Below, in pieces: positions 13,501 through 64,000 of a DNA stretch of 64,000 nucleotides (position 1 is its first letter; every line of letters starts with the position of its first letter). Source of the stretch: Hippasteria phrygiana (taxonomy: Eukaryota; Echinodermata; Asteroidea; Valvatida; Goniasteridae); contig JAZGUH010000725.1 in the NCBI GenBank assembly GCA_037893225.1, positions 248,001 through 312,000 of the forward strand, read 5' to 3'. The translations under genes and the position numbers were made by a program. The notes below the pieces were generated by a model. That model did not search any database, was not told where the DNA came from, and saw only the letters and a program-made list of their open reading frames with translations.

Positions 13501-16500
13501 ATGAGTCGCGCTCCACAGCACCACCGAGCCAGAAAGAAACAGGGCCGACCATTGTTACAACAGAGGGTAAAGATTAAAAAGTGGCTATTTAAAGGATCTC
13601 AATAAGTACCGGTACCAAAGTGATGACATTCCTGTCCAATATCTAGAACTATATCCGCACCAGGGGCCAATTTCATAGAGCTGCTTAAGCACAAAATTTG
13701 CTTAAGCACAAAAAAACCTTGCTTTAATAGTAAAATCAGGTTACCAGCCAAAATTCCATGTGATTTTTATGCTAAGCAAACAACAGCTAAATACCAGTCA
13801 CAAGCAATATATATACCACATGAAGTTTTAGCTGGTAACCTGATTTTACTAAGCAAGGTTTTTTTGTGCTTAAGCAAATTGTGTGCTTAAGCAGCTCTAT
13901 GAAATTGGCCCCAGTATGTTAGCAGGACCAATAATGAAGCCAATACTTCAAAAATCACGATGTGTTTAAAACAATCCCATTTTCACAATGCTCAGCACTG
14001 TAGCCATCGATCATTACATTTTTGTTAGAAGCAGTTGTAATATCAACTGATAATCTACTTCGGTCTTCTAAAGTATCCGGTGTAATTTATCAGAAGAAAA
14101 TCTTGAAACTTAAACTAGTGATCAGTATAAACGATAACGGTTAGATAAATTCTCTGTCATATTTTGATGCAAACTCAAGGAAAACAACTTTAGTTCAGAA
14201 AGTGTGATTTGACGATCTTGCCAGACCAAGACAGCTAACGGCTCTTTTCTATAATGCCATTCTTGTTTGATCTCGGTGATAGAATTTTCTACGGGAGCTC
14301 TTGCACTAGACCAGCCACAAACCGTGCCGACCAAAGTCATAGTAACCACAACAAATGTTGTGACAACTCCCCTCGGGACAACAACGGAGGAAACAACAAC
14401 AATCAAAACAACATTGCCAGCCCTGTCGTCAACAGCAGGTAAGACCAGTATCCTAACGGGGTGAACATTTTGGCTGGCTGGTAATCTGGGTACAGCCAAT
14501 TGATAATAATCTTGTCTACTTTTATTCTGCCAGAAACCGAGACAACAAGAGTGGTTTCCACCGTAACCGAAAGCACGACTGGTGCTGTCACGACAACCGA
14601 AGAAGTGAAAACTACCACCGTTACAACTGCTGCCGGGGAAGAGCTGACCACAGTCACAACATCAGTGCCGCTTGTGTCCACAACTCCAGGCTACTGCCTA
14701 GAACTAATGGGTGAACAGGCAGGACTTGAAGTAGAGCAATCTGCTGATGGCAAGTCCAGCCTTGACGAGACTACCGGAACATGGAAGATACCAGCGCCGA
14801 TAACAGAGGACAGAGCAAAGACACCAAAGCTGGTGACTGAGTTTTCCAAAGTGTCGGTTGTCAGGGGTATTAGACTGACCAACGTGGCAGACGGTCTTGG
14901 CTTTGTGCCGACTGAGACCATTGTGATGACTCTGGCAGTGTCCTACAGGAGTCCAGGAGAGGAGGAGTTCCTTGAAGTTCCAGAGGAGAAGACAGGTCAA
15001 GCGGTAAGTGGTTGAATCTTTTGCAAGAAATATCGCCGTTGGTGTAGATTAGTGATTTGGCCTAAAACTTGGCCGTTGGAGTGCTGGCGTATTATAAACT
15101 GAGTTGTATTTTCTGTCATTTTCCAGCTTGTGACATTGACTCTGGAGCCCGAAATGACCGAGACTTATCTCTTGCCCGAAGTGTCTTCTCTGGATGGTGT
15201 GACCGGCATTCGTCTGGAGGTAGTCGGAATCAGTGGGGCCAATTCCACAAACCTAGTTGTAGACATTCTGGGCTGTGTAAAAGGTGAGTAAGAATGGAAT
15301 CAGAAATGTTTGATTTGGCTAGAGTAGAAGCCCGAGCCGATGGATACTTAAAAAAAAAATTTGTGTGCTGTGAGATCTTGAACACTAACAGCTTTTTGTT
15401 TTGGTGTCGTATTTGTTTGGTTTTTGTAATAGAATTGTCTACTGGAGCTCCTGCAAGAGAACAGCCACAAACCGTGCCGACCAAAGTCATAGTAACCACA
15501 ACAAATGTTGTGACAACTCCCCTCGGGACAACAACGGAGGAATCAACAACAATCAAAACAACATTGCCAGCCCTGTCTTCAACAGCAGGTAAGACCAGTA
15601 TCCTAACGGGGTGAAAATTTTGGCTGGCTGGTAATCTGGGTACAGCCAATTGATAATAATCTTGTCTACTTTTATTCTGCCAGAAACCGAGACAACAAGA
15701 GTGGTTTCCACCGTAACCGAAAGCACGACTGGTGCTGTCACGACAACCGAAGAAGTGAAAACTACCACCGTTACAACTGCTGCCGGGGAAGAGCTGACCA
15801 CAGTCACAACATCAGTGCCGCTTGTGTCCACAACTCCAGGCTACTGCCTAGAACTAATGGGTGAACAGGCAGGACTTGAAGTAGAGCAATCTGCTGATGG
15901 CAAGTCCAGCCTTGACGAGACTACCGGAACATGGAAGATACCAGCGCCGATAACAGAGGACAGAGCAAAGACACCAAAGCTGGTGACCGAGTTTTCCAAA
16001 GTGTCGGTTGTCAGGGGTATTAGACTGACCAATGTGGCAGACGGTCTTGGCTTTGTGCCGACTGAGACCATTGTGATGACTCTGGCAGTGTCCTACAGGA
16101 GTCCAGGAGAGGTGGAGTTCCTTGAAGTTCCAGAGGAGAAGACAGGTCAAGCGGTAAGTGGTTGAATCTTTTGCAAGAAATATCTCCGTTGGTGTAGATT
16201 GGTGATTTGGCCTAAAACTTGGCCGTTCGAGTGGTGGCGTATTATAGACGGAGTTGTATTTTCTGTCATTTTCCAGCTTGTGACATTGACTCTGGAGCCC
16301 GAAATGACCGAGACTTATCTCTTGCCCGAAGTGTCTTCTCTGGATGGTGTGACCGGCATTCGTCTGGAGGTAGTCGGAATCAGTGGGGCCAATTCCACAA
16401 ACCTAGTTGTAGACATTCTGGGCTGTGTAAAAGGTGAGTAAGATTGGAATCAGAAATGTTTGATTTGGCTAGAGTAGAAGCCCGAGCCGATGGGATACTT

Positions 16501-19500
16501 TTGAGGGAAAAAATAGTGTGGTGTGAGATCTTGAACACTGACGGGTTTTTGTTTTGGTGTCGTATTTGTTTGGTTTTTGTAATAGAATTGTCTACTGGAG
16601 CTCCTGCAAGAGACCAGCCACAAACCGTGCCGACCAAAGTCATAGTAACCACAACAAATGTTGTGACAACTCCCCTCGGGACAACAACGGAGGAAACAAC
16701 AACAATCAAAACAACATTGCCAGCCCTGTCGTCAACAGCAGGTAAGACCAGTATCCTAACGGGGTGAACATTTCGGCTGGCTGGTAATCTGGGTACAGCC
16801 AATTAATAATAATCTTGTCTACTTCTATTCTGCCAGAAACCGAGACAACAACAGTGGTTTCCACCGTAACCGAAAGCACAACTGGTGCTGTCACGACAAC
16901 CGAAGAAGTGAAAACTACCACCGTTACAACTGCTGCCGGGGAAGAGCTGACCACAGTCACAACATCAGTGCCGCTTGTGTCCACAACTCCAGGCTACTGC
17001 CTAGAACTAATCGGTGAACAGGCAGGACTTGAAGTAGAGCAATCTGCTGATGGCAAGTCCAGCCTTGACGAGACTACCGGAACATGGAAGATACCAGCGC
17101 CGATAACAGAGGACAGAGCAAAGACACCAAAGCTGGTGACTGAGTTTTCCAAAGTGTCGGTTGTCAGGGGTATTAGACTGACCAACGTGGCAGACGGTCT
17201 TGGCTTTGTGCCGACTGAGACCATTGTGATGACTCTGGCAGTGTCCTACAGGAGTCCAGGAGAGGAGGAGTTCCTTGAAGTTCCAGAGGAGAAGACAGGT
17301 CAAGCGGTAAGTGGTTGAATCTTTTGCAAGAAATATCGCCGTTGGTGTAGATTGGTGATTTGGCCTAAAACTTGACCGTTGGAGGGGTTGCATATTATAA
17401 ACTGAGTTGTATTTTCTGTCATTTTCCAGCTTGTGACATTGACTCTGGAGCCCGAAATGACCGAGACTTATCTCTTGCCCGAAGTGTCTTCTCTGGATGG
17501 TGTGACCGGCATTCGTCTGGAGGTAGTCGGAATCAGTGGGGCCAATTCCACAAACCTAGTTGTAGACATTCTGGGCTGTGTAAAAGGTGAGTAAGATTGG
17601 AATCAGAAATGTTTGATTTGGCTAGAGTAGAAGCCCGAGCCGATGGGATACTTTTGAAGAAAATAGATTGTGTGCTGTGAGATCTTGATCACTGACAGGT
17701 TTTTGTTTTGGTGTCGTATTTGTTTGGTTTTTGTAATAGAATTGTCCACTGGAGCTCCAGGAAGAGACCAGCCACAAACCGTGCCGACCAAAGTCAAAGT
17801 AAGCACAACAAATGTTGTGACAACTCCCCTCGGGACAACAACGGAGGAAACAACAACAATCAAAACAACATTGCCAGCCCTGTCGTCAACAGCAGGTAAG
17901 ACCAGTATCCTAACGGGGTGAACCTTTTGGCTGGCTGGTAATCTGGGTACAGCCAATTGATAATAATCTTGTCTACTTTTATTCTGCCAGAAACCGAGAC
18001 AACAAGAGTGGTTTCCACCGTAACCGAAAGCACAACTGGTGCTGTCACGACAACCGAAGAAGTGAAAACTACCACCGTTACAACTGCTGCCGGGGAAGAG
18101 CTGACCACAGTCACAACATCAGTGCCGCTTGTGTCCACAACTCCAGGCTACTGCCTAGAACCAATAGGTGAACAGGCAGAACTTGAAGTAGAGCAATCTG
18201 CTGATGGCAAGTCCAGCCTTGACGAGACTACCGGAACATGGAAGATACCAGCGCCGATAACAGAGGACAGAGCAAAGACACCAAAGCTGGTGACCGAGTT
18301 TTCCAAAGTGTCGGTTGTCACGGGTATTAGACTGACCAACGTGGCCGACGGTCTTGGCTTTGTGCCGACTGAGACTATTGTGATGACTCTGGCAGTGTCC
18401 TACAGGAGTCCAGGAGAGGTGGAGTTCCTTGAAGTTCCAGAGGAGAAGACAGGTCAAGCGGTAAGTGGTTGAATCTTTTGCAAGAAATATCTCTGTTGGT
18501 GTAGATTGGTGATTTGGCCTAAAACTTGGCCGTTCGAGTGGTGGCGTATTATAGACTGAGTTGTATTTTCTGTCATTTTCCAGCTTGTGACATTGACTCT
18601 GGAGCCCGAAATGACCGAGACTTATCTCTTGCCCGAAGTGTCTTCTCTGGATGGTGTGACCGGCATTCGTCTGGAGGTAGTCGGAATCAGTGGGGCCAAT
18701 TCCACAAACCTAGTTGTAGACATTCTGGGCTGTGTAAAAGGTGAGTAAGATTGGAATCAGAAATGTTTGATTTTGCTAGAGCAGAAGCCCGAGCCGATGG
18801 GATGCTTTTGAGGGAAAAATATAGTGTGGTGTGAGATCTTGAACACTGACGGGTTTTTGTTTTGGTGTCGTATTTGTTTGGTTTTTGTAATAGAATTGTC
18901 TACTGGAGCTCCTGCAAGAGACCAGCCACAAACCGTGCCGACCAAAGTCATAGTAACCACAACAAATGTTGTGACAACTCCCCTCGGGACAACAACGGAG
19001 GAATCAACAACAATCAAAACAACATTGCCAGCCCTGTCTTCAACAGCAGGTAAGACCAGTATCCTAACGGGGTGAACATTTTGGCTGACTGGTAATCTGG
19101 GTACAGCCAATTGATAATAATCTTGTCTACTTTTATTCTGCCAGAAACCGAGACAACAAGAGTGGTTTCCACCGTAACCGAAAGCACGACTGGTGCTGTC
19201 ACGACAACCGAAGAAGTGAAAACTACCACCGTTACAACTGCTGCCGGGGAAGAGCTGACCACAGTCACAACATCAGTGCCGCTTGTGTCCACAACTCCAG
19301 GCTACTGCCTAGAACTAATGGGTGAACAGGCAGGACTTGAAGTAGAGCAATCTGCTGATGGCAAGTCCAGCCTTGACGAGACTACCGGAACATGGAAGAT
19401 ACCAGCGCCGATAACAGAGGACAGAACAAAGACACCAAAGCTGGTGACCGAGTTTTCCAAAGTGTCGGTTGTCAGGGGTATTAGACTGACCAACGTGGCA

Positions 19501-55500: not shown

Positions 55501-58500
55501 GGCTAGAGCAGAAGCCCGAGCCGATGGGATGCTTTTGAGGAAAAAAAATAGCGTGGTGTGAGATCTTGAACACTGACGGGTTTTTGTTTTGGTGTCGTAT
55601 TGGTTTGGTTTTTGTAATAGAATTGTCTACTGGATCTCCTGCAAGAGACCAGCCACAAACCGTGCCGACCAAAGTCATAGTAACCACAACAAATGTTGTG
55701 ACAACTCCCCTCGGGACAACAACGGAGGAATCAACAACAATCAAAACAACATTGCCAGCCCTGTCTTCAACAGCAGGTAAGACCAGTATCCTAACGGGGT
55801 GAACATTTTGGCTGGCTGGTAATCTGGGTACAGCCAATTGATAATAATCTTGTCTACTTTTATTCTGCCAGAAACCGAGACAACAAGAGTGGTTTCCACC
55901 GTAACCAAAAGCACGACTGGTGCTGTCACGACAACCGAAGAAGTGAAAACTACCACCGTTACAACTGCTGTCGGGGAAGAGCTGACCAAAGTCACAACAT
56001 CAGTGCCACTTGTGTCCACAACTCCAGGCTACTGCCTAGAACCAATGCGTGAACAGGCAGGACTTGAAGTAGAGCAATCTGCTGATGGCAAGTCCAGCCT
56101 TGACGAGACTACCGGAACATGGAAGATACCAGCGCCGATAACAGAGGACAGAGCAAAGACACCAAAGCTGGTGACCGAGTTTTCCAAAGTGTCGGTTGTC
56201 ACGGGTATTAGACTGACCAACGTGGCAGACGGTCTTGGCTTTGTGCCGACTGAGACCATTGTGATGACTCTGGCAGTGTCCTACAGGAGTCCAGGAGAGG
56301 AGGAGTTCCTTGAAGTTCCAGAGAAGAAGACAGGTCAAGCGGTAAGTGGTTGAATCTTTTGCAAGAAATATCGGTGTTGGTGTAGATTGGTGATTTGGCC
56401 TAAAACTTGGCCGTTGGAGTGGTGGCGTAACTGAGTTGTATTTTCTTTCATTTTGCAGCTTGTGACATTGACTCTGGAGCCCGAAATGGCCGAGACTTAT
56501 CTCTTGCCCGAAGTGTCTTCTCTGGATGGTGTGACCGGCATTCGTCTAGAGGTAGTCGGAATCAGTGGGGCCAATTCCACAAACCTAGTTGTAGACATTC
56601 TGGGCTGTGTAAAAGGTGAGTAAGATTGGAATCAGAAATGTTTAATTTGGCTAGAGCAGAAGCCCGAGCCGATGGGATGCTTTTGAGGAAACAAAATAGT
56701 GTGGTGTGAGATCTTGAACACTGACGGGTTTTTTGTTTTGGTGTCGTATTTGTTTGGTTTTTGTAATAGAATTGTCTACTGGAGCTCCTGCAAGAGACCA
56801 GCCACAAACCGTGCCGACCAAAGTCATAGTAACCACAACAAATGTTGTGACAACTCCCCTCGGGACAACAACGGAGGAATCAACAACAATCAAAACAACA
56901 TTGCCAGCCCTGTCTTCAACAGCAGGTAAGACCAGTATCCTAACGGGGTGAACATTTTGGCTGGCTGGTAATCTGGGTACAGCCAATTGATAATAATCTT
57001 GTCTACTTTTATTCTGCCAGAAACCGAGACAACAAGAGTGGTTTCCACCGTAACCAAAAGCACGACTGGTGCTGTCACGACAACCGAAGAAGTGAAAACT
57101 ACCACCGTTACAACTGCTGCCGGGGAAGAGCTGACCAAAGTCACAACATCAGTGCCACTTGTGTCCACAACTCCAGGCTACTGCCTAGAACCAATGCGTG
57201 AACAGGCAGGACTTGAAGTAGAGCAATCTGCTGATGGCAAGTCCAGCCTTGACGAGACTACCGGAACATGGAAGATACCAGCGCCGATAACAGAGGACAG
57301 AGCAAAGACACCAAAGCTGGTGACCGAGTTTTCCAAAGTGTCGGTTGTCACGGGTATTAGACTGACCAACGTGGCAGACGGTCTTGGCTTTGTGCCGACT
57401 GAGACCATTGTGATGACTCTGGCAGTGTCCTACAGGAGTCCAGGAGAGGAGGAGTTCCTTGAAGTTCCAGAGGAGAAGACAGGTCAAGCGGTAAGTGGTT
57501 GAATCTTTTGCAAGAAATATCGGTGTTGGTGTAGATTGGTGATTTGGCCTAAAACTTGGCCGTTGGAGTGGTGGCGTAACTGAGTTGTATTTTCTTTCAT
57601 TTTGCAGCTTGTGACATTGACTCTGGAGCCCGAAATGGCCGAGACTTATCTCTTGCCCGAAGTGTCTTCTCTGGATGGTGTGACCGGCATTCGTCTAGAG
57701 GTAGTCGGAATCAGTGGGGCCAATTCCACAAACCTAGTTGTAGACATTCTGGGCTGTGTAAAAGGTGAGTAAGATTGGAATCAGAAATGTTTAATTTGGC
57801 TAGAGCAGAAGCCCGAGCCGATGGGATGCTTTTGAGGAAACAAAATAGTGTGGTGTGAGATCTTGAACACTGACGGGTTTTTGTTTTGGTGTCGTATTTG
57901 TTTGGTTTTTGTAATAGAATTGTCTACTGGAGCTCCTGCAAGAGACCAGCCACAAACCGTGCCGACCAAAGTCATAGTAACCACAACAAATGTTGTGACA
58001 ACTCCCCTCGGGACAACAACGGAGGAATCAACAACAATCAAAACAACATTGCCAGCCCTGTCTTCAACAGCAGATAAGACCAGTATCCTAACGGGGTGAA
58101 CATTTTGGCTGGCTGGTAATCTGGGTACAGCCAATTGATAATAATCTTGTCTACTTTTATTCTGCCAGAAACCGAGACAACAAGAGTGGTTTCCACCGTA
58201 ACCGAAAGCACGACTGGTGCTGTCAAGACAACCGAAGAAGTGAAAACTACCACCGTTACAACTGCTGCCGGGGAAGAGCTGACCACAGTCACAACATCAG
58301 TGCCGCTTGTGTCCACAACTCCAGGCTACTGCCTAGAACCAATGGGTGAACAGGCAGGACTTGAAGTAGAGCAATCTGCTGATGGCAAGTCCAGCCTTGA
58401 CGAGACTACCGGAACATGGAAGATACCAGCGCCGATAACAGAGGACAGAGCAAAGACACCAAAGCTGGTGACCGAGTTTTCCAAAGTGTCGGTTGTCACG

Positions 58501-61500
58501 GGTATTAGACTGACCAACGTGGCAGACGGTCTTGGCTTTGTGCCGACTGAGACCATTGTGATGACTCTGGCAGTGTCCTACAGGAGTCCAGGAGAGGAGG
58601 AGTTCCTTGAAGTTCCAGAGGAGAAGACAGGTCAAGCGGTAAGTGGTTGAATCTTTCGCAAGAAATATCGGTGTTGGTGTAGATTGGTGATTTGGCCTAA
58701 AACTTGGCCGTTGGAGTGGTGGCGTAACTGAGTTGTATTTTCTTTCATTTTGCAGCTTGTGACATTGACTCTGGAGCCCGAAATGGCCGAGACTTATCTC
58801 TTGCCCGAAGTGTCTTCTCTGGATGGTGTGACCGGCATTCGTCTAGAGGTAGTCGGAATCAGTGGGGCCAATTCCACAAACCTAGTTGTAGACATTCTGG
58901 GCTGTGTAAAAGGTGAGTAAGATTGGAATCAGAAATGTTTAATTTGGCTAGAGCAGAAGCCCGAGCCGATGGGATGCTTTTGAGGAAAAAAAATAGTGTG
59001 GTGTGAGATCTTGAACACTGACGGGTTTTTGTTTTGGTGTCGTATTTGTTTGGTTTTTGTAATAGAATTGTCTACTGGAGCTCCTGCAAGAGACCAGCCA
59101 CAAACCGTGCCGACCAAAGTCATAGTAACCACAACAAATGTTGTGACAACTCCCCTCGGGACAACAACGGAGGAATCAACAACAATCAAAACAACATTGC
59201 CAGCCCTGTCTTCAACAGCAGGTAAGACCAGTATCCTAACGGGGTGAACATTTTGGCTGGCTGGTAATCTGGGTACAGCCAATTGATAATAATCTTGTCT
59301 ACTTTTATTCTGCCAGAAACCGAGACAACAAGAGTGGTTTCCACCGTAACCGAAAGCACGACTGGTGCTGTCAAGACAACCGAAGAAGTGAAAACTACCA
59401 CCGTTACAACTGCTGCCGGGGAAGAGCTGACCACAGTCACAACATCAGTGCCACTTGTGTCCACAACTCCAGGCTACTGCCTAGAACCAATGGGTGAACA
59501 GGCAGGACTTGAAGTAGAGCAATCTGCTGATGGCAAGTCCAGCCTTGACGAGACTACCGGAACATGGAAGATACCAGCGCCGATAACAGAGGACAGAGCA
59601 AAGACACCAAAGCTGGTGACCAAGTTTTCCAAAGTGTCGGTTGTCACGGGTATTAGACTGACCAACGTGGCAGACGGTCTTGGCTTTGTGCCGACTGAGA
59701 CCATTGTGATGACTCTGGCAGTGTCCTACAGGAGTCCAGGAGAGGAGGAGTTCCTTGAAGTTCCAGAGGAGAAGACAGGTCAAGCGGTAAGTGGTTGAAT
59801 CTTTCGCAAGAAATATCGGTGTTGGTGTAGATTGGTGATTTGGCCTAAAACTTGGCCGTTGGAGTGGTGGCGTAACTGAGTTGTATTTTCTTTCATTTTG
59901 CAGCTTGTGACATTGACTCTGGAGCCCGAAATGGCCGAGACTTATCTCTTGCCCGAAGTGTCTTCTCTGGATGGTGTGACCGGCATTCGTCTAGAGGTAG
60001 TCGGAATCAGTGGGGCCAATTCCACAAACCTAGTTGTAGACATTCTGGGCTGTGTAAAAGGTGAGTAAGATTGGAATCAGAAATGTTTAATTTGGCTAGA
60101 GCAGAAGCCCGAGCCGATGGGATGCTTTTGAGGAAAAAAAATAGTGTGGTGTGAGATCTTGAACACTGACGGGTTTTTGTTTTGGTGTCGTATTTGTTTG
60201 GTTTTTGTAATAGAATTGTCTACTGGAGCTCCTGCAAGAGACCAGCCACAAACCGTGCCGACCAAAGTCATAGTAACCACAACAAATGTTGTGACAACTC
60301 CCCTCGGGACAACAACGGAGGAATCAACAACAATCAAAACAACATTGCCAGCCCTGTCTTCAACAGCAGGTAAGACCAGTATCCTAACGGGGTGAACATT
60401 TTGGCTGGCTGGTAATCTGGGTACAGCCAATTGATAATAATCTTGTCTACTTTTATTCTGCCAGAAACCGAGACAACAAGAGTGGTTTCCACCGTAACCG
60501 AAAGCACGACTGGTGCTGTCAAGACAACCGAAGAAGTGAAAACTACCACCGTTACAACTGCTGCCGGGGAAGAGCTGACCACAGTCACAACATCAGTGCC
60601 ACTTGTGTCCACAACTCCAGGCTACTGCCTAGAACCAATGGGTGAACAGGCAGGACTTGAAGTAGAGCAATCTGCTGATGGCAAGTCCAGCCTTGACGAG
60701 ACTACCGGAACATGGAAGATACCAGCGCCGATAACAGAGGACAGAGCAAAGACACCAAAGCTGGTGACCAAGTTTTCCAAAGTGTCGGTTGTCACGGGTA
60801 TTAGACTGACCAACGTGGCAGACGGTCTTGGCTTTGTGCCGACTGAGACCATTGTGATGACTCTGGCTGTGTCCTACAGGAGTCCAGGAGAGGAGGAGTT
60901 CCTTGAAGTTCCAGAGGAGAAGACAGGTCAAGCGGTAAGTGGTTGAATCTTTTGCAAGAAATATCGGTGTTGGTGTAGATTGGTGATTTGGCCTAAAACT
61001 TGGCTGTTGGAGTGGTGGCGTAACTGAGTTGTATTTTCTTTCATTTTGCAGCTTGTGACATTGACTCTGGAGCCCGAAATGGCCGAGACTCATCTCTTGC
61101 CCGAAGTGTCTTCTCTGGATGGTGTGACCGGCATTCGTCTAGAGGTAGTCGGAATCAGTGGGGCCAATTCCACAAACCTAGTTGTAGACATTCTGGGCTG
61201 TGTAAAAGGTGAGTAAGATTGGAATCAGAAATGTTTAATTTGGCTAGAGCAGAAGCCCGAGCCGATGGGATGCTTTTGAGGAAAAAAAATAGTGTGGTGT
61301 GAGATCTTGAACACTGACGGGTTTTTGTTTTGGTGTCGTATTTGTTTGGTTTTTGTAATAGAATTGTCTACTGGAGCTCCTGCAAGAGACCAGCCACAAA
61401 CCGTGCCGACCAAAGTCATAGTAACCACAACAAATGTTGTGACAACTCCCCTCGGGACAACAACGGAGGAATCAACAACAATCAAAACAACATTGCCAGC

Positions 61501-64000
61501 CCTGTCTTCAACAGCAGGTAAGACCAGTATCCTAACGGGGTGAACATTTTGGCTGGCTGGTAATCTGGGTACAGCCAATTGATAATAATCTTGTCTACTT
61601 TTATTCTGCCAGAAACCGAGACAACAAGAGTGGTTTCCACCGTAACCGAAAGCACGACTGGTGCTGTCAAGACAACCGAAGAAGTGAAAACTACCACCGT
61701 TACAACTGCTGCCGGGGAAGAGCTGACCACAGTCACAACATCAGTGCCGCTTGTGTCCACAACTCCAGGCTACTGCCTAGAACCAATGGGTGAACAGGCA
61801 GGACTTGAAGTAGAGCAATCTGCTGATGGCAAGTCCAGCCTTGACGAGACTACCGGAACATGGAAGATACCAGCGCCGATAACAGAGGACAGAGCAAAGA
61901 CACCAAAGCTGGTGACCGAGTTTTCCAAAGTGTCGGTTGTCACGGGTATTAGACTGACCAACGTGGCAGACGGTCTTGGCTTTGTGCCGACTGAGACCAT
62001 TGTGATGACTCTGGCAGTGTCCTACAGGAGTCCAGGAGAGGAGGAGTTCCTTGAAGTTCCAGAGGAGAAGACAGGTCAAGCGGTAAGTGGTTGAATCTTT
62101 TGCAAGAAATATCGGTGTTGGTGTAGATTGGTGATTTGGCCTAAAACTTGGCCGTTGGAGTGGTGGCGTAACTGAGTTGTATTTTCTTTCATTTTGCAGC
62201 TTGTGACATTGACTCTGGAGCCCGAAATGGCCGAGACTTATCTCTTGCCCGAAGTGTCTTCTCTGGATGGTGTGACCGGCATTCGTCTAGAGGTAGTCGG
62301 AATCAGTGGGGCCAATTCCACAAACCTAGTTGTAGACATTCTGGGCTGTGTAAAAGGTGAGTAAGATTGGAATCAGAAATGTTTAATTTGGCTAGAGCAG
62401 AAGCCCGAGCCGATGGGATGCTTTTGAGGAAAAAAAATAGTGTGGTGTGAGATCTTGAACACTGACGGGTTTTTGTTTTGGTGTCGTATTTGTTTGGTTT
62501 TTGTAATAGAATTGTCTACTGGAGCTCCTGCAAGAGACCAGCCACAAACCGTGCCGACCAAAGTCATAGTAACCACAACAAATGTTGTGACAACTCCCCT
62601 CGGGACAACAACGGAGGAATCAACAACAATCAAAACAACATTGCCAGCCCTGTCTTCAACAGCAGGTAAGACCAGTATCCTAACGGGGTGAACATTTTGG
62701 CTGGCTGGTAATCTGGGTACAGCCAATTGATAATAATCTTGTCTACTTTTATTCTGCCAGAAACCGAGACAACAAGAGTGGTTTCCACCGTAACCGAAAG
62801 CACGACTGGTGCTGTCAAGACAACCGAAGAAGTGAAAACTACCACCGTTACAACTGCTGCCGGGGAAGAGCTGACCACAGTCACAACATCAGTGCCACTT
62901 GTGTCCACAACTCCAGGCTACTGCCTAGAACCAATGGGTGAACAGGCAGGACTTGAAGTAGAGCAATCTGCTGATGGCAAGTCCAGCCTTGACGAGACTA
63001 CCGGAACATGGAAGATACCAGCGCCGATAACAGAGGACAGAGCAAAGACACCAAAGCTGGTGACCGAGTTTTCCAAAGTGTCGGTTGTCACGGGTATTAG
63101 ACTGACCAACGTGGCAGACGGTCTTGGCTTTGTGCCGACTGAGACCATTGTGATGACTCTGGCAGTGTCCTACAGGAGTCCAGGAGAGGAGGAGTTCCTT
63201 GAAGTTCCAGAGGAGAAGACAGGTCAAGCGGTAAGTGGTTGAATCTTTTGCAAGAAATATTGGTGTTGGTGTAGATTGGTGATTTGGCCTAAAACTTGGC
63301 CGTTGGAGTGGTGGCGTAATTGAGTTGTATTTTCTTTCATTTTGCAGCTTGTGACATTGACTCTGGAGCCCGAAATGGCCGAGACTTATCTCTTGCCCGA
63401 AGTGTCTTCTCTGGATGGTGTGACCGGCATTCGTCTAGAGGTAGTCGGAATCAGTGGGGCCAATTCCACAAACCTAGTTGTAGACATTCTGGGCTGTGTA
63501 AAAGGTGAGTAAGATTGGAATCAGAAATGTTTAATTTGGCTAGAGCAGAAGCCCGAGCCGATGGGATGCTTTTGAGGAAAAAAAATAGTGTGGTGTGAGA
63601 TCTTGAACACTGACGGGTTTTTGTTTTGGTGTCGTATTTATTTGGTTTTTGTAATAGAATTGTCTACTGGAGCTCCTGCAAGAGACCAGCCACAAACCGT
63701 GCCGACCAAAGTCATAGTAACCACAACAAATGTTGTGACAACTCCCCTCGGGACAACAACGGAGGAATCAACAACAATCAAAACAACATTGCCAGCCCTG
63801 TCTTCAACAGCAGGTAAGACCAGTATACTAACGGGGTGAACATTTTGGCTGGCTGGTAATCTGGGTACAGCCAATTGATAATAATCTTGTCTACTTTTAT
63901 TCTGCCAGAAACCGAGACAACAAGAGTGGTTTCCACCGTAACCGAAAGCACGACTGGTGCTGTCAAGACAACCGAAGAAGTGAAAACTACCACCGTTACA
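1..64000 (+). CDS. Giant secreted VWD/LDLa/mucin-like repeat protein, partial at both ends
   Basis: This is a single multi-exon gene. I joined every exon by splice sites and phase: 19 upstream exons (2310 coding bases), 43 full three-exon units (783 bases each) and part of unit 44. This gives about 12,075 residues with no in-frame stop. Domain order is TIL-E, VWD-C8-TIL-E, seven LDLa modules, Thr/Ser linker, then 44 or more copies of a Thr-rich linker plus a 153-residue Cys-bounded domain. All domains are extracellular, so the product should be secreted or on the surface; no membrane segment is visible. The start resembles SCO-spondin and gel-forming mucins (VWD assemblies then LDLa). The F5/8C-like repeats recall sea-star footprint proteins. 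It could be a mucus, adhesive or extracellular-matrix protein. Signal peptide, start and stop lie outside the window. The gene model is firm; the function is inferred. Confidence 0.88.
150..785. other. Intron 1 with a diverged piece of the 934-1378 element
   Basis: About 47 bp at 462-508 match, in reverse complement, 1209-1254 of the element in the next intron (both carry CCCTGCCCT and TTTCCCTCA blocks). No other structure was recognised. Confidence 0.45.
934..1378. mobile_element. Non-autonomous DNA transposon (MITE) with 8-bp target duplication
   Basis: The element is bounded by 23-bp inverted repeats (GGCGATTGTGTAGTGTAGGG and its complement). It is flanked by a perfect 8-bp direct repeat, AAATTATC, at 926-933 and 1379-1386. 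An 8-bp duplication is typical of hAT-type elements; no transposase is present in its 445 bp. It lies in the intron between exons 2 and 3. Confidence 0.8.
1775..2789 (+). CDS. Exons 4-5: von Willebrand factor type D domain
   Basis: Exon 4 is 1775-2113 and exon 5 is 2587-2789. Exon 4 opens with the VWD signature [14 protein letters not shown] followed by [13 protein letters not shown]. Exon 5 carries the calcium-loop region [14 protein letters not shown]. The usual CGLCG motif, linked in VWF and mucins to disulfide exchange during multimerisation, reads VGLCG, so its first cysteine is missing. The end of exon 5 ([13 protein letters not shown]) starts the C8 module. Exon 5 ends at GTG before GTGAGA, phase 0. 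VWD domains of this type build disulfide-linked polymers in mucins; whether this one does is unknown. Confidence 0.9.
2114..2586. other. Intron 4, no recognised element
   Basis: Plain AT-rich intron with a T tract just before the acceptor (about 2563-2576). Nothing else was recognised. Confidence 0.6.
3061..3960. repeat. 20-bp minisatellite, about 45 copies
   Basis: Consensus GGCACAATRCCGGTTTGGMY, arranged head to tail in perfect 20-bp register without a single indel; the outermost copies are degenerate. The main variants are A/G at the R position and GAC, GAT, GCC or GCT between the units. It sits in the intron between exons 5 and 6. The unit has no stop in most frames, which creates long spurious reading frames on both strands. 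Confidence 0.95.
4091..4543 (+). CDS. Exons 6-7: C8 domain
   Basis: Exon 6 is 4091-4218 (phase 0 in, 2 out) and exon 7 is 4434-4543 (phase 2 in, 1 out). The translation runs through [44 protein letters not shown] and ends at DDLC. The spacing and the Cys-rich CxCxC segment are those of the C8 domain that follows VWD in VWF, mucins, zonadhesin and SCO-spondin. The two exons are separated from the VWD by the minisatellite-bearing intron (2790-4090). Confidence 0.87.
4837..6141 (+). CDS. Exons 8-10: TIL domain and E module closing the D assembly
   Basis: Exons are 4837-4983, 5361-5454 and 6095-6141. The first acceptor is CCACAG at 4831-4836; the nearby TTGCAG would give an immediate in-frame stop, so the upstream site was chosen. 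The protein reads [18 protein letters not shown], then [15 protein letters not shown] (TIL), then [28 protein letters not shown] and [13 protein letters not shown] (E module). The exon phases (1, 2, 1) and sizes repeat those of exons 2-3 (95 and 47 bp against 94 and 47), showing that the two D assemblies arose by duplication. Confidence 0.86.
4984..5360. other. Intron 8, no recognised element
   Basis: AT-rich intron between exons 8 and 9. No repeat or gene was recognised. Confidence 0.6.
5490..5926 (+). mobile_element. MITE-like element, copy 1 of an inverted pair
   Basis: The terminal inverted repeats begin CACTTTAAAGGTAGTATACA and end as the complement of CACTTAAAGGTAAAACAACA. The internal sequence (for example CACCAGGTGCCATGATTTCA) recurs in reverse complement at 13048-13448. 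There is no coding content. Confidence 0.7.
6391..6446. repeat. T-rich low-complexity tract
   Basis: A run of TTTAT/TTTTTT within intron 10. The preceding 6180-6390 looks like worn repeat DNA, but no family was recognised. Confidence 0.7.
6495..6860. mobile_element. MITE with long inverted ends
   Basis: The left end contains GGAGTGGTTAATCTGTCGTC and the right end the near-complement (GACCACAGATTAACCACTCC). The similarity continues inward through GGCCAGGCC and AAAAGCC for about 35 bp or more. The element is 366 bp, has no coding content, and lies in the intron between exons 10 and 11. Confidence 0.7.
7271..7390 (+). CDS. Exon 11: LDLa module 1
   Basis: A class 1-1 exon encoding one LDL-receptor class A repeat with six cysteines: [13 protein letters not shown], then [15 protein letters not shown] and a final Cys. 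The acidic DCGDGSDE loop that binds calcium in LDLa modules is complete. Its phase symmetry matches the following six LDLa exons. Confidence 0.92.
7548..7661 (+). CDS. Exon 12: LDLa module 2
   Basis: A class 1-1 exon with acceptor TTTGTAG. It encodes [13 protein letters not shown], then [15 protein letters not shown] and a final Cys. It has one extra cysteine at the start, and the calcium loop reads DCADHSDE instead of DCxDGSDE. The fold should be kept; calcium affinity is uncertain. Confidence 0.9.
7831..8055. repeat. (TCAGC)45 pentanucleotide array
   Basis: Forty-five perfect TCAGC units (225 bp), with no substitution visible. Two units in the opposite orientation (TGAGC TGAGC) lie at 7821-7830, and the right end closes with TGA, so the left junction is palindromic. 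It lies in the intron between exons 12 and 13. Confidence 0.97.
8237..8359 (+). CDS. Exon 13: LDLa module 3, altered calcium loop
   Basis: A class 1-1 exon encoding [13 protein letters not shown], then [20 protein letters not shown]. The six cysteines are present, but the last loop is lengthened and rewritten (GFNDTTDED where GDGSDE is usual) and gains an NDT sequon. It may have lost normal calcium binding. Confidence 0.88.
8393..8464 (-). tRNA. tRNA-like sequence (Ala GGC-like), probably pseudogene or SINE head
   Basis: The minus strand folds as a tRNA. It has a 7-bp acceptor with one mismatch, A box TAGCTCAGTTGG (perfect), B box GGTTCGAATCC (perfect), and a TTTT stretch right after the 3' end as a Pol III stop. 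The anticodon position reads GGC with C at 33 instead of the invariant U, the anticodon stem has two mismatches, and the T stem has one. Eukaryotes read Ala GCY codons with AGC (IGC), not GGC, so a working tRNA is unlikely. It could be transcribed by Pol III. Confidence 0.6.
8762..8813 (-). ncRNA. Hammerhead-ribozyme-like motif
   Basis: On the minus strand, CTGATGA (8804-8798) is followed by a short GAC/GTC-closed arm, GAAAC (8778-8774) and the cleavage-site triplet GTC (8773-8771). That is the order of a type I hammerhead core. The flanks form a short stem I with one mismatch (GCAGT against ACCGC). Stem III would be only AC/GT with no loop, but ACGT is self-complementary, so a dimeric form could close it. 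Such minimal hammerheads are known from Penelope-like elements and retrozymes. Activity is not shown. Confidence 0.45.
8863..8942. repeat. Short minisatellite, 22-24 bp unit
   Basis: Three full units, CGGTCATTGGCTGG followed by TGCAACGACC or CTACGACC, and a fourth partial unit ending CGGTCATTAG. Confidence 0.8.
8984..9109 (+). CDS. Exon 14: LDLa module 4
   Basis: A class 1-1 exon with acceptor TTACAG. It encodes [15 protein letters not shown], then [15 protein letters not shown] and a final Cys: a standard six-Cys LDLa with an intact acidic loop. The acceptor lies about 40 bp downstream of the Penelope-like repeat remnant. Confidence 0.91.
9386..9508 (+). CDS. Exon 15: LDLa module 5
   Basis: A class 1-1 exon encoding [15 protein letters not shown], then [15 protein letters not shown] and a final Cys. 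The acidic loop is intact. There are two additional cysteines in the first half, and an NFT sequon. The donor is GTGAGT. Confidence 0.9.
9509..10198. other. Intron 15, no firm element
   Basis: It contains a C9 run (about 9526-9534). CCGGCTGTC near 9757 has its complement near 10058-10066, with too little matching sequence inside to call a transposon. Confidence 0.5.
10199..10309 (+). CDS. Exon 16: LDLa module 6, divergent
   Basis: A class 1-1 exon encoding [18 protein letters not shown], then [15 protein letters not shown]. Cysteine spacing is LDLa-like, but the Phe before the second Cys is missing and the loop reads KNGEDE instead of GDGSDE. The exon is open, and its phase fits both neighbours. 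Confidence 0.85.
10330..10554. mobile_element. TA-flanked MITE, copy 1
   Basis: Inverted ends AGCCAGTTCGGTAT, bounded by TA on both sides as in Tc1/mariner-type insertion. The 225-bp body has no coding content and closely matches copy 2 at 12759-12975. It lies in the intron between exons 16 and 17. Confidence 0.8.
10743..10853 (+). CDS. Exon 17: LDLa module 7
   Basis: A class 1-1 exon encoding [11 protein letters not shown], then [15 protein letters not shown]. The last cysteine codon of the module is split: its T is the last exon base and GT comes from exon 18. It is a standard LDLa with a complete acidic loop and closes the run of seven. Confidence 0.91.
11373..11738. repeat. Fold-back element with 20-bp inverted ends
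   Basis: TTATCCTCAAGCAAACTTGA at 11373-11392 is matched by its complement at 11719-11738 with one mismatch. It is probably a MITE; its right end abuts the palindrome at 11743-11874. Confidence 0.6.
11743..11874. repeat. 132-bp near-perfect palindrome
   Basis: Two arms of about 62 bp beginning GTTATCCCAC and ending GTGGGATAAC around a short centre near 11808. Few mismatches separate the arms. It would form a long hairpin in RNA or a cruciform in DNA. Confidence 0.85.
12004..13566 (+). CDS. Exons 18-19: Thr/Ser-rich linker between LDLa run and repeat array
   Basis: Exon 18 (12004-12033) is a 30-bp microexon reading [10 protein letters not shown]; its first two bases complete the last LDLa cysteine. 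Exon 19 (13474-13566) reads [19 protein letters not shown] and then [11 protein letters not shown]. Both are class 1-1, like repeat exon A. Exon 19 contains an NES sequon. Composition suggests an O-glycosylated spacer. The microexon was placed because it is the only small open piece that restores the Cys codon and keeps phase. Exon 18 is less certain than exon 19. Confidence 0.68.
12228..12469. mobile_element. MITE family 1, copy 1
   Basis: The inverted ends begin GGCCCAATTTCATAAAGCTG and run through GTTAAGCACA. The internal GGTTACCAGCCAAAA is shared with the copy at 13663-13912. It is directly abutted by the next element at 12470. Confidence 0.78.
12470..12722. mobile_element. MITE family 2
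   Basis: The ends are CCCAATTTAATGGCTCTGCT on the left and AGCAGAGCCATGAAATTGGG on the right. It shares only the outer CCCAATTT with family 1; the interior is unrelated. No coding content. Confidence 0.75.
12759..12975. mobile_element. TA-flanked MITE, copy 2
   Basis: Same family as 10330-10554: ends AGCCGGTTCGGTAT and ATACCGAACTGGCT, TA at both borders, and a shared interior (GACGTAATGTCACGCCATGT). Confidence 0.8.
13048..13448 (-). mobile_element. MITE-like element, copy 2, inverted relative to 5490-5926
   Basis: It reads through the same internal blocks as 5490-5926 on the opposite strand. Its left end is GAAGGTAGTATACAACATTT. The right end is more worn, so the border is approximate. Confidence 0.65.
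13663..13912. mobile_element. MITE family 1, copy 2
   Basis: A 250-bp element with inverted ends GGGGCCAATTTCATAGAGCT, continuing GCTTAAGCAC. Same family as 12228-12469. It lies in the intron just before the repeat array. Confidence 0.82.
14283..15283 (+). repeat. Unit 1 (left edge of array)
   Basis: Exons A 14283-14438, B 14534-15003, C 15127-15283. The start of A is diverged ([10 protein letters not shown] instead of [10 protein letters not shown]); from the CAGCCAC of A onwards it matches the other units. T type at B20, L58, R111, C11 Thr. Confidence 0.9.
15433..16433 (+). repeat. Unit 2
   Basis: Exons A 15433-15588, B 15684-16153, C 16277-16433. A10 is Glu (AREQ) and A38 Ser; B20 Thr, L58, R111, V144 (EVEF). 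Confidence 0.9.
16586..17586 (+). repeat. Unit 3
   Basis: Exons A 16586-16741, B 16837-17306, C 17430-17586. B begins ETETTTVV (Arg6 replaced by Thr) and has I59 (LELIG); R111. Confidence 0.9.
17740..18740 (+). repeat. Unit 4
   Basis: Exons A 17740-17895, B 17991-18460, C 18584-18740. A reads GAPGRD with KVKVS at A18-22. B has P58, I59, E64 (QAELE), T111 and V144. First member of the two-unit period. Confidence 0.9.
18894..19894 (+). repeat. Unit 5
   Basis: Exons A 18894-19049, B 19145-19614, C 19738-19894. A38 Ser; B has L58, T95 (RTKTPK) and R111. Confidence 0.9.
20048..21048 (+). repeat. Unit 6
   Basis: Exons A 20048-20203, B 20299-20768, C 20892-21048. A has GAPGRD and KVKVS as in units 4 and 8; B has P58, K103 (VTKFS), T111 and V144. 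Confidence 0.9.
21203..22203 (+). repeat. Unit 7
   Basis: Exons A 21203-21358, B 21454-21923, C 22047-22203. B has L58, E106 (FSEVS) and T111. Pairs with unit 5 in the two-unit period. Last unit with Thr at C11. Confidence 0.9.
22357..23360 (+). repeat. Unit 8
   Basis: Exons A 22357-22512, B 22608-23077, C 23204-23360. A is of the unit 4/6 kind (GAPGRD, KVKVS). B has L58 and R111. The B-C intron is the longest (126 bp). C is the first with Ala at C11 (EPEMAET), which all later units share. Confidence 0.9.
23514..24508 (+). repeat. Unit 9 (first K-type unit)
   Basis: Exons A 23514-23669, B 23765-24234, C 24352-24508. A12 is Ser (DQSQT). B20 changes from Thr to Lys, with P58 and T111. C24 is Val (LDVVTG). 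The B-C intron switches to the 117-bp form ending TTTTGCAG. Confidence 0.9.
24662..25656 (+). repeat. Unit 10
   Basis: Exons A 24662-24817, B 24913-25382, C 25500-25656. Its B protein is identical to that of unit 9; C24 returns to Gly. Confidence 0.9.
25810..26804 (+). repeat. Unit 11
   Basis: Exons A 25810-25965, B 26061-26530, C 26648-26804. Protein as unit 10; the B-C intron and the silent GAA at C31 are shared with unit 10. Confidence 0.9.
26958..27961 (+). repeat. Unit 12
   Basis: Exons A 26958-27113, B 27209-27678, C 27805-27961. B27 is Ser (KSTTV). Its B-C intron is the 126-bp form otherwise seen only in unit 8, so its 3' half was copied from that type. Confidence 0.9.
28115..29109 (+). 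repeat. Unit 13
   Basis: Exons A 28115-28270, B 28366-28835, C 28953-29109. A12 Pro; B has T95 and S139 (SYSSPG). Confidence 0.9.
29263..30256 (+). repeat. Unit 14
   Basis: Exons A 29263-29418, B 29514-29983, C 30100-30256. B keeps S139; its acceptor is TTCCAG instead of TGCCAG. The B-C intron is 116 bp, one T shorter, a form shared with unit 33. Confidence 0.9.
30409..31403 (+). repeat. Unit 15
   Basis: Exons A 30409-30564, B 30660-31129, C 31247-31403. B reads [11 protein letters not shown] (V41I and P46L). The intron before A has the short GCTTTGAGAT form that marks a-type units. Confidence 0.9.
31557..32551 (+). repeat. Unit 16 (d-like)
   Basis: Exons A 31557-31712, B 31808-32277, C 32395-32551. 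B has I11 (STITES) and S27. The A-B intron has GTGAAAATTT instead of GTGAACATTT, shared with unit 26. Confidence 0.9.
32704..33698 (+). repeat. Unit 17 (a-type)
   Basis: Exons A 32704-32859, B 32955-33424, C 33542-33698. Consensus K-type protein with A12 Ser. First unit of the four-unit, 4582-bp period. Confidence 0.9.
33852..34846 (+). repeat. Unit 18 (b-type)
   Basis: Exons A 33852-34007, B 34103-34572, C 34690-34846. B carries I11, S27 and V63 (EQVGLE). Confidence 0.9.
35000..35985 (+). repeat. Unit 19 (c-type)
   Basis: Exons A 35000-35155, B 35251-35720, C 35829-35985. A12 Pro. The B-C intron is 9 bp shorter (108 bp). C reads [11 protein letters not shown]24N creates a second N-glycosylation sequon and R29H follows. 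Confidence 0.9.
36139..37133 (+). repeat. Unit 20 (d-type)
   Basis: Exons A 36139-36294, B 36390-36859, C 36977-37133. B has I11 but keeps T27, the only clear coding difference from unit 24. Confidence 0.9.
37286..38280 (+). repeat. Unit 21 (a-type)
   Basis: Exons A 37286-37441, B 37537-38006, C 38124-38280. Protein as unit 17, exactly 4582 bp downstream of it. Confidence 0.9.
38434..39428 (+). repeat. Unit 22 (b-type)
   Basis: Exons A 38434-38589, B 38685-39154, C 39272-39428. I11, S27, V63 as in unit 18, 4582 bp away. Confidence 0.9.
39582..40567 (+). repeat. Unit 23 (c-type)
   Basis: Exons A 39582-39737, B 39833-40302, C 40411-40567. Short 108-bp B-C intron and [10 protein letters not shown] as in unit 19. 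Confidence 0.9.
40721..41715 (+). repeat. Unit 24 (d-type)
   Basis: Exons A 40721-40876, B 40972-41441, C 41559-41715. I11 and S27 with A63. Confidence 0.9.
41868..42853 (+). repeat. Unit 25 (a/c chimera)
   Basis: Exons A 41868-42023, B 42119-42588, C 42697-42853. The 5' part is a-type (short GCTTTGAGAT before A, A12 Ser). The 3' part is c-type (108-bp B-C intron, LDNVTG), but C29 is Arg. Confidence 0.9.
43007..44001 (+). repeat. Unit 26 (d-like)
   Basis: Exons A 43007-43162, B 43258-43727, C 43845-44001. I11, S27, and S121 (VADSLGF). Shares the GTGAAAATTT intron variant with unit 16. Confidence 0.9.
44154..45148 (+). repeat. Unit 27 (a-type)
   Basis: Exons A 44154-44309, B 44405-44874, C 44992-45148. 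Protein as units 17 and 21. Confidence 0.9.
45302..46296 (+). repeat. Unit 28 (b-type)
   Basis: Exons A 45302-45457, B 45553-46022, C 46140-46296. I11, S27, V63 as in units 18 and 22. Confidence 0.9.
46450..47435 (+). repeat. Unit 29 (c-type)
   Basis: Exons A 46450-46605, B 46701-47170, C 47279-47435. Short B-C intron and [10 protein letters not shown] as in units 19 and 23. Confidence 0.9.
47589..48583 (+). repeat. Unit 30 (d-type)
   Basis: Exons A 47589-47744, B 47840-48309, C 48427-48583. I11, S27, A63 as in unit 24. Confidence 0.9.
48736..49730 (+). repeat. Unit 31 (a-type)
   Basis: Exons A 48736-48891, B 48987-49456, C 49574-49730. Protein as units 17, 21 and 27; 4582 bp after unit 27. 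Confidence 0.9.
49884..50878 (+). repeat. Unit 32 (b-type position)
   Basis: Exons A 49884-50039, B 50135-50604, C 50722-50878. I11 and S27, but Ala at B63 where units 18, 22 and 28 have Val. Confidence 0.9.
51032..52025 (+). repeat. Unit 33 (c / unit-14 chimera)
   Basis: Exons A 51032-51187, B 51283-51752, C 51869-52025. The 5' part is c-type (A12 Pro, GTCGTATTTATTTGG before A). The B-C intron has no 9-bp deletion and matches unit 14 (ATTTTTTTCATTTTGCAG). C reads DGVTGIRLE. Confidence 0.9.
52179..53173 (+). repeat. Unit 34 (return to T type)
   Basis: Exons A 52179-52334, B 52430-52899, C 53017-53173. A reads [12 protein letters not shown]20 is Thr again, with I11, V53 (TPVYCLE), P58 and R111. 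The K block ends here. Confidence 0.9.
53325..54319 (+). repeat. Unit 35
   Basis: Exons A 53325-53480, B 53576-54045, C 54163-54319. A12 is Thr (DQTQT). B has I11, T20, R111 and L126 (FVLTETI). Confidence 0.9.
54472..55467 (+). repeat. Unit 36
   Basis: Exons A 54472-54627, B 54723-55192, C 55311-55467. A reads [11 protein letters not shown] as in unit 34. B has I41, S121 and K128 (PTKTI). C10 is Ile (EPEIAET). Confidence 0.9.
55621..56615 (+). repeat. Unit 37
   Basis: Exons A 55621-55776, B 55872-56341, C 56459-56615. A reads STGSPARD. B has K13 (VTKSTT), V34 (TAVGEE), K40, R60 (EPMREQ) and K152 (PEKKTG). Confidence 0.9.
56770..57764 (+). repeat. Unit 38
   Basis: Exons A 56770-56925, B 57021-57490, C 57608-57764. 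Shares K13, K40 and R60 with unit 37, so the two are recent sisters. Last T-type unit in the window. Confidence 0.9.
57918..58912 (+). repeat. Unit 39: exon A donor mutated GT to AT
   Basis: Exons A 57918-58073, B 58169-58638, C 58756-58912. The donor of A reads CAG|ATAAGA at 58074, where all other units read CAG|GTAAGA. B and C are intact consensus K type. Skipping A would keep the frame. Confidence 0.9.
59066..60060 (+). repeat. Unit 40
   Basis: Exons A 59066-59221, B 59317-59786, C 59904-60060. B103 is Lys (VTKFS), shared with unit 41. Confidence 0.9.
60214..61208 (+). repeat. Unit 41
   Basis: Exons A 60214-60369, B 60465-60934, C 61052-61208. B103 Lys as in unit 40; C14 is His (ETHLL). 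Confidence 0.9.
61362..62356 (+). repeat. Unit 42
   Basis: Exons A 61362-61517, B 61613-62082, C 62200-62356. Consensus K-type protein with A12 Pro. Confidence 0.9.
62510..63504 (+). repeat. Unit 43
   Basis: Exons A 62510-62665, B 62761-63230, C 63348-63504. Consensus protein. Its B-C intron has the ATATTGGTG and GTAATTGAG changes seen after b-type units 18, 22, 28 and 32. Confidence 0.9.
63658..64000 (+). repeat. Unit 44, cut by window end
   Basis: Exon A 63658-63813, exon B from 63909, truncated after 92 bases. The intron before A carries the c-type GTATTTATTTGG variant, so an abcd-like order may resume here. Confidence 0.88.

Follow-up and report, generated by a model that had tools for sequence, protein, structure and literature searches.

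The window analysed here, the whole stretch of 64,000 nucleotides from Hippasteria phrygiana contig JAZGUH010000725.1 (C725:248001-312000), carries the beginning of an array of near-identical three-exon cassettes, which continues to the end of the contig in 117 intact copies and is joined by a continuous exon chain to a head of VWD and LDLa modules. We consider it rather probable that the whole represents a single gene whose product is a secreted glycoprotein that forms polymers, a mucin-like gel or glue. If spliced as drawn, its product could be among the longest proteins known.

Cassettes of constant length

Cassettes were located with fuzzy anchors for all six exon edges, and the search recovered exactly the 43 complete cassettes and one cut copy given in a preliminary description of the window, with the first exon at 14283 (Table 1). 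In 43/43 complete cassettes the exons measure exactly 156, 470 and 157 nt (A, B and C; sum 783 nt), are free of stops and keep the frame, adding 261 residues each as described before; with phases of 1-1 (A), 1-0 (B) and 0-1 (C), the frame is kept throughout the array in the window and would be kept by any number of cassettes. The computed 12,074 residues for the window agree with the earlier figure of about 12,075. Intron 1 is fixed at 95 nt, intron 2 has 108-126 nt and intron 3 149-154 nt. GT/AG is present at 257 of the 258 splice sites in the window, the lone exception being in unit 39, where exon A has AT as its donor. The near-invariance of exons and introns alike was also recovered, with a mean pairwise divergence between the 43 copies of 1.1-1.6% for exons (A 1.6%, B 1.1%, C 1.2%) and 0.8-3.7% for introns (intron 1 0.8%, introns 2 and 3 3.6-3.7%). 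Whole units are distinct in 34 of 43 cases and their proteins in 28 of 43.

Table 1. Features of the window (positions on the window scale)
Feature	Position	Strand	Details
D' module	1..1551	+	TIL exon 1-149, E-type exons 786-880, 1505-1551; Pfam TIL 34.5 bits; exon chain
D3 assembly VWD-C8-TIL-E	1775..6141	+	Pfam VWD 88.2 and 38 bits, C8 32.4, TIL 31.5
D3 exons	1775-2113, 2587-2789, 4091-4218, 4434-4543, 4837-4983, 5361-5454, 6095-6141	+	
Seven LDLa-like exons, extent	7271..10853	+	Pfam LDLa and Cys pattern
LDLa-like exons	7271-7390, 7548-7661, 8237-8359, 8984-9109, 9386-9508, 10199-10309, 10743-10853	+	
Thr-rich mini-exon, 30 nt	12004..12033	+	first two bases complete last Cys codon of LDLa 7
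Thr/Ser-rich linker exon directly before array	13474..13566	+	
43 complete cassettes	14283..63504	+	A 156, intron 95, B 470, intron 108-126, C 157, intron 149-154 nt
Cassette 1 exon A	14283..14438	+	Thr-rich linker
Cassette 1 exon B	14534..15003	+	Thr-rich linker, then initial two thirds of Cys-bounded domain
Cassette 1 exon C	15127..15283	+	domain end (LVVDILGC)
Unit 39 exon A	57918..58073	+	donor AT, not GT
44th cassette	63658..64000	+	cut at window end, resumes on contig

Domain structure of the head

A splice-edge search, guided by exon edges proposed by eye and with the version nearest to these chosen, yielded a stop-free, phase-consistent chain of 22 exons from base 1 of the window to the end of cassette 1. 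The chain encodes TIL-E and VWD-C8-TIL-E, then the seven LDLa-like modules and, after two short exons rich in Thr/Ser, the cassette. Together with the coding constraint described below, it lends support to the earlier proposal that the array belongs to one giant secreted protein headed by VWD and LDLa modules. Pfam LDLa was detected in three of the four LDLa-like exons scanned (none for 8984-9109), and the other three exons were recognised by their Cys pattern within the chain.

Upstream of the window, tblastn of the D3 protein in combination with Pfam located VWD-C8-TIL twice more, as D1 (C725:240801-244331) and D2 (C725:244516-247007); the VWD of D2 was found by tblastn, its Pfam tail scoring 18.9 bits, below the cut-off of 22.9. 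Still further upstream are an EGF module at about C725:239832 (EGF_2, 31.5 bits), an EMI-like half at about C725:238659 (18.8 bits, under the Pfam cut-off of 25) and, at C725:237070, a putative start exon, chosen by eye, whose product looks like a signal peptide. The order D1-D2-D'-D3 is that of the gel-forming mucins and VWF, and three VWD followed by a run of LDLa is that of SCO-spondin. In the CGLC motif of VWD domains, the first Cys has a role in multimer assembly; D3 reads VVGLCG and the D2 piece VAGLCG, so that this Cys is absent in both.

D3 aligns with MUC2 D3 at 217 bits (309-residue query) and, considering the FCGBP and VWF alignments only, with D2, D3 and D1 of VWF at 217, 165 and 136 bits (357-residue query). 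Its best whole-chain match in the PDB is FCGBP (8rde_A), which comes out on top because it contains many D assemblies; single FCGBP assemblies score 106-132 bits among those printed, below VWF D2, and FCGBP is a chain of D assemblies, whereas here a linker-domain array follows.

Extent of the array

Within the assembly (944 Mb, 1285 contigs), the letters were read for 50 kb before the window and for everything after it to the end of C725. The array runs to this end with 117 intact cassettes, all of 156/470/157 nt and stop-free, with canonical splice sites at 699 of 702 positions and three broken; the earlier count of 43 cassettes and a cut 44th is thus right for the window and too low for the gene. 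Two further copies at the extreme end of C725 are riddled with one-base indels, noise that is confined to the last 2.3 kb; we read them as an unpolished contig end and excluded them from the cassette counts. The minimum length from the letters read is 769 + 117 x 261 = 31,306 residues, the head before the window being extra.

An exon C query on the assembly returned 117 matches on C725 and 33 on the minus strand of contig C826, with 150 of 541 candidates scored; as 391 of 541 were left unscored in this search and in a second one with a late-type exon C query, arrays elsewhere in the assembly are possible. With the late-type query, C826 from 360791 down to 347088 aligns with C725 from 382485 up to 396188. 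At this offset 13/13 copy labels (E-value plus open-frame length) and 12/12 spacings agree, as against 10/18 at the next best offset, so that the two contigs either overlap or hold two copies of one region. Past the overlap, C826, on which copies are known from exon C positions only, contributes 14 late-type and at least six more divergent exon C copies. Together, the two contigs hold at least 137 exon C copies, corresponding to 35,757 residues (about 35,800 if spliced), and the gene has at least 117 cassettes, probably 137 or more.

Coding constraint and history of the array

The 117 copies contain 183 distinct variants from their consensus (83 synonymous, 100 nonsynonymous, 0 stop), where the same base changes, if placed at random, would be expected to give 53 synonymous, 124 nonsynonymous and 5.3 stop. 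In 3000 simulated trials, zero stops occurred in 0.6% and 83 or more synonymous variants in 0/3000; the null assumes that variants are independent, which block duplication partly violates, and each distinct variant was counted once. The 43 window copies alone give a weak signal (30 synonymous, 46 nonsynonymous, 0 stop; joint P 0.0055). No exon length change was found in 91,611 nt of the 117 copies, whereas introns 2 and 3 do vary in length. Given the lack of indels and stops and the synonymous excess, the cassette exons look coding.

The exon A donor AT is found again in unit 54 (window-scale 75124), and an exon A acceptor AT in a later unit, about unit 64 (window-scale 86621). Skipping of exon A would be frame-neutral (phase 1-1).

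Several blocks of units recur along the array. Units 17-19 reappear in full and without any change at 21-23 and 27-29, units 30-35 likewise at 45-50, and a 15-unit block is duplicated (29-43 and 44-58) with at most two exon differences per unit. The duplicated block carries the broken donor of unit 39 over to unit 54, and since both share it, the mutation is older than the duplication and unlikely to be a read error. On C725, 94 of 116 whole units are distinct, and units 92-117 differ from units 1-43 by 6.5-6.7%. Duplicated blocks together with unit divergence are the pattern of unequal crossing-over. Since intron 1 varies no more than the exons do, the copies are alike through homogenisation and not through selection alone.

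Linker and Cys-bounded domain

Over its 104 residues the linker consensus has 42.3% Ser+Thr and 6.7% Pro, a Ser/Thr/Pro-rich (PTS) composition. The Cys-bounded domain that follows has 153 residues, and both cysteines are invariant in 117/117 copies. In the one 261-residue unit scanned, no Pfam family, CysD included, was detected at E up to 1, and a PDB search with the domain returned no significant chain.

The domain had been described as F5/8C-like. In favour of this are the end cysteines, which are 152 apart, equal to factor VIII C2 (146-147 in three other F5/8C domains), the LGC motif at the C-terminus and a local score, albeit a weak one; against it, 0/9 sequences match the F5/8C family profile at E up to 10, a range in which most matches beyond about 0.1 are already removed by the HMMER filters, and hhalign of the domain with this profile gave a probability of 1.4%. 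The local hhalign score against four F5/8C domains was 18.4 (18.3 with template inserts stripped), with a scoring core that spans 8-21 columns and lies at the C-terminus, by the LGC motif; it was reached by 2/150 column shuffles with default settings and by 0/150 with -mact 0, and in a repeat of the shuffle test by 0/150 with inserts kept and 1/150 with inserts stripped. In global mode, the score with template inserts kept was 18.1 over 134 columns and exceeded 150/150 shuffles. With inserts stripped it was 5.4 over 3 columns, within about 1 sd of the mean for 100 shuffled templates (2.8, sd 2.6), the reversed template scoring 4.3; the window consensus alone scored 3.0, and genuine F5/8C domains left out singly 179-239. 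On account of this fragility of the global alignment, kinship to F5/8C, which we had initially held to be rather probable, is now put at an even chance, its basis being the Cys spacing, the LGC motif and the local score.

AlphaFold2 gave a mean pLDDT of 37.5 for a construct that runs from the exon B part through the intron into exon C (TGA read as W, 36 intron-coded residues inside) and of 50.9 for the exon B part alone, too low in both cases for a usable model of the fold. A carbohydrate-binding-module match below threshold (E 0.044, 2/9 members) was given no weight.

Relatives of the cassette

Protein searches returned 14 short proteins (P0001-P0014). Seven of these (P0001-P0007) are 67-88% identical to exon B and lie on contigs of 1.2-1.4 kb, about one cassette, which suggests that these contigs are collapsed arrays of the same kind. 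In P0010, an exon C-like piece is joined to a Thr-rich exon ending in TTPG and shows the linker-domain border; P0010-P0014, from other assemblies, appear as a second cassette subfamily, the exon C of P0010 being 31% identical to that of the window. Searches with two peptide patterns gave 45 pattern matches in viral contigs and 114 in bacterial and archaeal contigs, with 0 confirmed relatives in either set. A broad-term search of titles and abstract starts, in literature excluding most subscription journals, found no description of the cassette.

Comparison with known repeat proteins

The preliminary description considered it unusual that exons and introns should both be near-identical. The near-identity holds, but there is a precedent in human LPA, whose KIV-2 units of 5.5 kb and two exons occur in up to more than 40 copies (PMC4378929, from the available part of its text). 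They are likewise in-frame exon-plus-intron cassettes, near-identical and in tens of copies, and differ in having two exons that encode a kringle in place of three that encode a linker and a domain. In chicken Muc13, too, the mucin domain is made from many near-identical exons; it is, however, a membrane mucin with one exon per repeat and a PTS-only repeat, as far as the available text of PMC1552070 describes it. The same source reports that in gel-forming mucins PTS alternates with CysD, much as the Thr-rich linkers here alternate with a Cys-bearing globular domain. With these mucins and VWF the gene further shares the D1-D2-D'-D3 head, D3 matching MUC2 D3 and VWF D2 along the entire assembly; unlike in either, D3 is followed by LDLa modules and by a three-exon linker-domain unit free of Pfam families, in a far higher copy number. 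Also among the related work is PMC8261243.

Working model and alternatives

In the mechanism we propose, disulphides in the head (a possible EMI half, EGF, D1, D2, D' and D3) would join one molecule to the next, as they do in SCO-spondin, von Willebrand factor and gel-forming mucins. The seven LDLa-like modules come after it, and the cassettes, at least 117 and probably 137 or more of them, would form a rod-like tail. The 104-residue Thr-rich linkers would be O-glycosylated and stiff. Between them, the Cys-bounded domain of 153 residues would be a globular bead, perhaps with the beta-sandwich fold of discoidin, in the place that CysD has in vertebrate mucins; such beads would keep the glycan brushes apart and may bind one another or sugars. 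The outcome would be a gel or a reversible glue; a role in matrix, mucus or adhesion is suggested by the architecture. The array would expand through unequal crossing-over, homogenised introns included. The likeness to VWF, mucins and SCO-spondin is meant as one of working mode; membership of any single family is not claimed. Against the model stand the missing first Cys in D3 and in the D2 piece, the lack of a significant Pfam or PDB match for the domain, its low-scoring structure predictions and the three broken splice sites on C725.

Tentatively, and with the balance somewhat against it, this may be extended to a VWF-like secreted polymer of more than 36,000 residues, with at least 137 mucin linkers and beads of a new, discoidin-related type, kept uniform by unequal crossing-over of whole cassettes; relatives in other genomes would have arrays of this kind, which short-read contigs show collapsed to single cassettes. 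Human titin has about 34,000-36,000 residues, and the proposed chain would be longer. If spliced as drawn, the gene would be a natural test case for the ways in which secreted polymers of great length are synthesised, fold and stay uniform, and its near-identical introns are a clear record of unequal crossing-over within a coding array. The Cys-bounded domain is a candidate bead domain for bio-inspired glues. Huge proteins have been reported to be most numerous in two echinoderm proteomes (PMC11573180, available part of the text).

Several other readings draw on the same observations. The gene may be a SCO-spondin orthologue of glial (Reissner-type) secretion, in which a linker and FA5/8C-like unit was amplified in place of thrombospondin repeats. 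Chick SCO-spondin has the same module types, namely EMI, three VWD, TIL, LDLa and one FA5/8C (PMC8487547), and echinoderm radial glia are positive with SCO-spondin antibodies (PMC10570448), both as given in the available parts of these papers; three VWD, TIL, the LDLa run, the order D1-D2-D'-D3-LDLa, the possible EMI half and a domain that is maybe FA5/8C would fit. The EMI match lies under its cut-off, however, the tail, as far as read, consists of at least 117 repeats of a single cassette, and the VWD/C8/TIL/LDLa front end is shared by limpet P-vulgata_3 (VWD x3, C8 x2, TIL x2, LDLa x5), a secreted protein of adhesive foot mucus, of 1604 aa and with no comparable repeat reported in the available text of PMC7333891. 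The front end is therefore no proof of a neural role, and we regard orthology to SCO-spondin as rather unlikely. The limpet protein at the same time speaks for a mucin of adhesive or footprint type, and the gene could then be the source of a protein resembling Asterias rubens Sfp12a/b/c, which are described as Thr-rich and repetitive, without a known domain, partial (425-442 aa) and from a poorly assembled locus (PMC9382459, available text). The array may account for such unassemblable Thr-rich sea-star footprint fragments; yet Sfp12 is likened by description only and Thr-rich repeats are common, which makes this reading unlikely in our view.

The array may also be read only in part. Exon skipping or alternative exons, or promoters and poly(A) sites inside the array, might yield shorter proteins and no full-length product, and the symmetric exon A, which lacks its donor in two copies and its acceptor in one, could be skipped in frame. 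Against this, the 117 copies show coding constraint as a set, and each keeps its exon lengths and open frame; we consider partial reading rather unlikely. The identical units, the repeated blocks and the two noisy copies might raise the suspicion of an artefact of assembly or of a repeat in decay, but the distinctness of most whole units, the divergence between early and late ones and the open exons of constant length, with noise only at the contig end, led us to set the artefact aside as very improbable.

Other elements in the region

In the introns of the head, a tRNA-Ala-like element (window 8392-8464, minus strand, 48.6 bits, Rfam), either a gene or a tRNA-derived repeat, lies between LDLa exons and was the sole match of Rfam and ARAGORN on the window. 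A minisatellite with a 20-nt unit (window 3084-3939, 42.8 copies) occupies an intron of the D3 assembly, and an AGCTC pentamer array (window 7823-8056, 46.8 copies at 99%) one between LDLa exons. Two related MITE-like long inverted repeats adjoin the start of the array, with arms of 94 nt at 77% (window 12228-12469) and 62 nt at 98% (window 13663-13912). About 21.6 kb upstream of the window, an open frame of 398 codons (L003, C725:226355-227548) resembles, by eye, a rhodopsin-class receptor.
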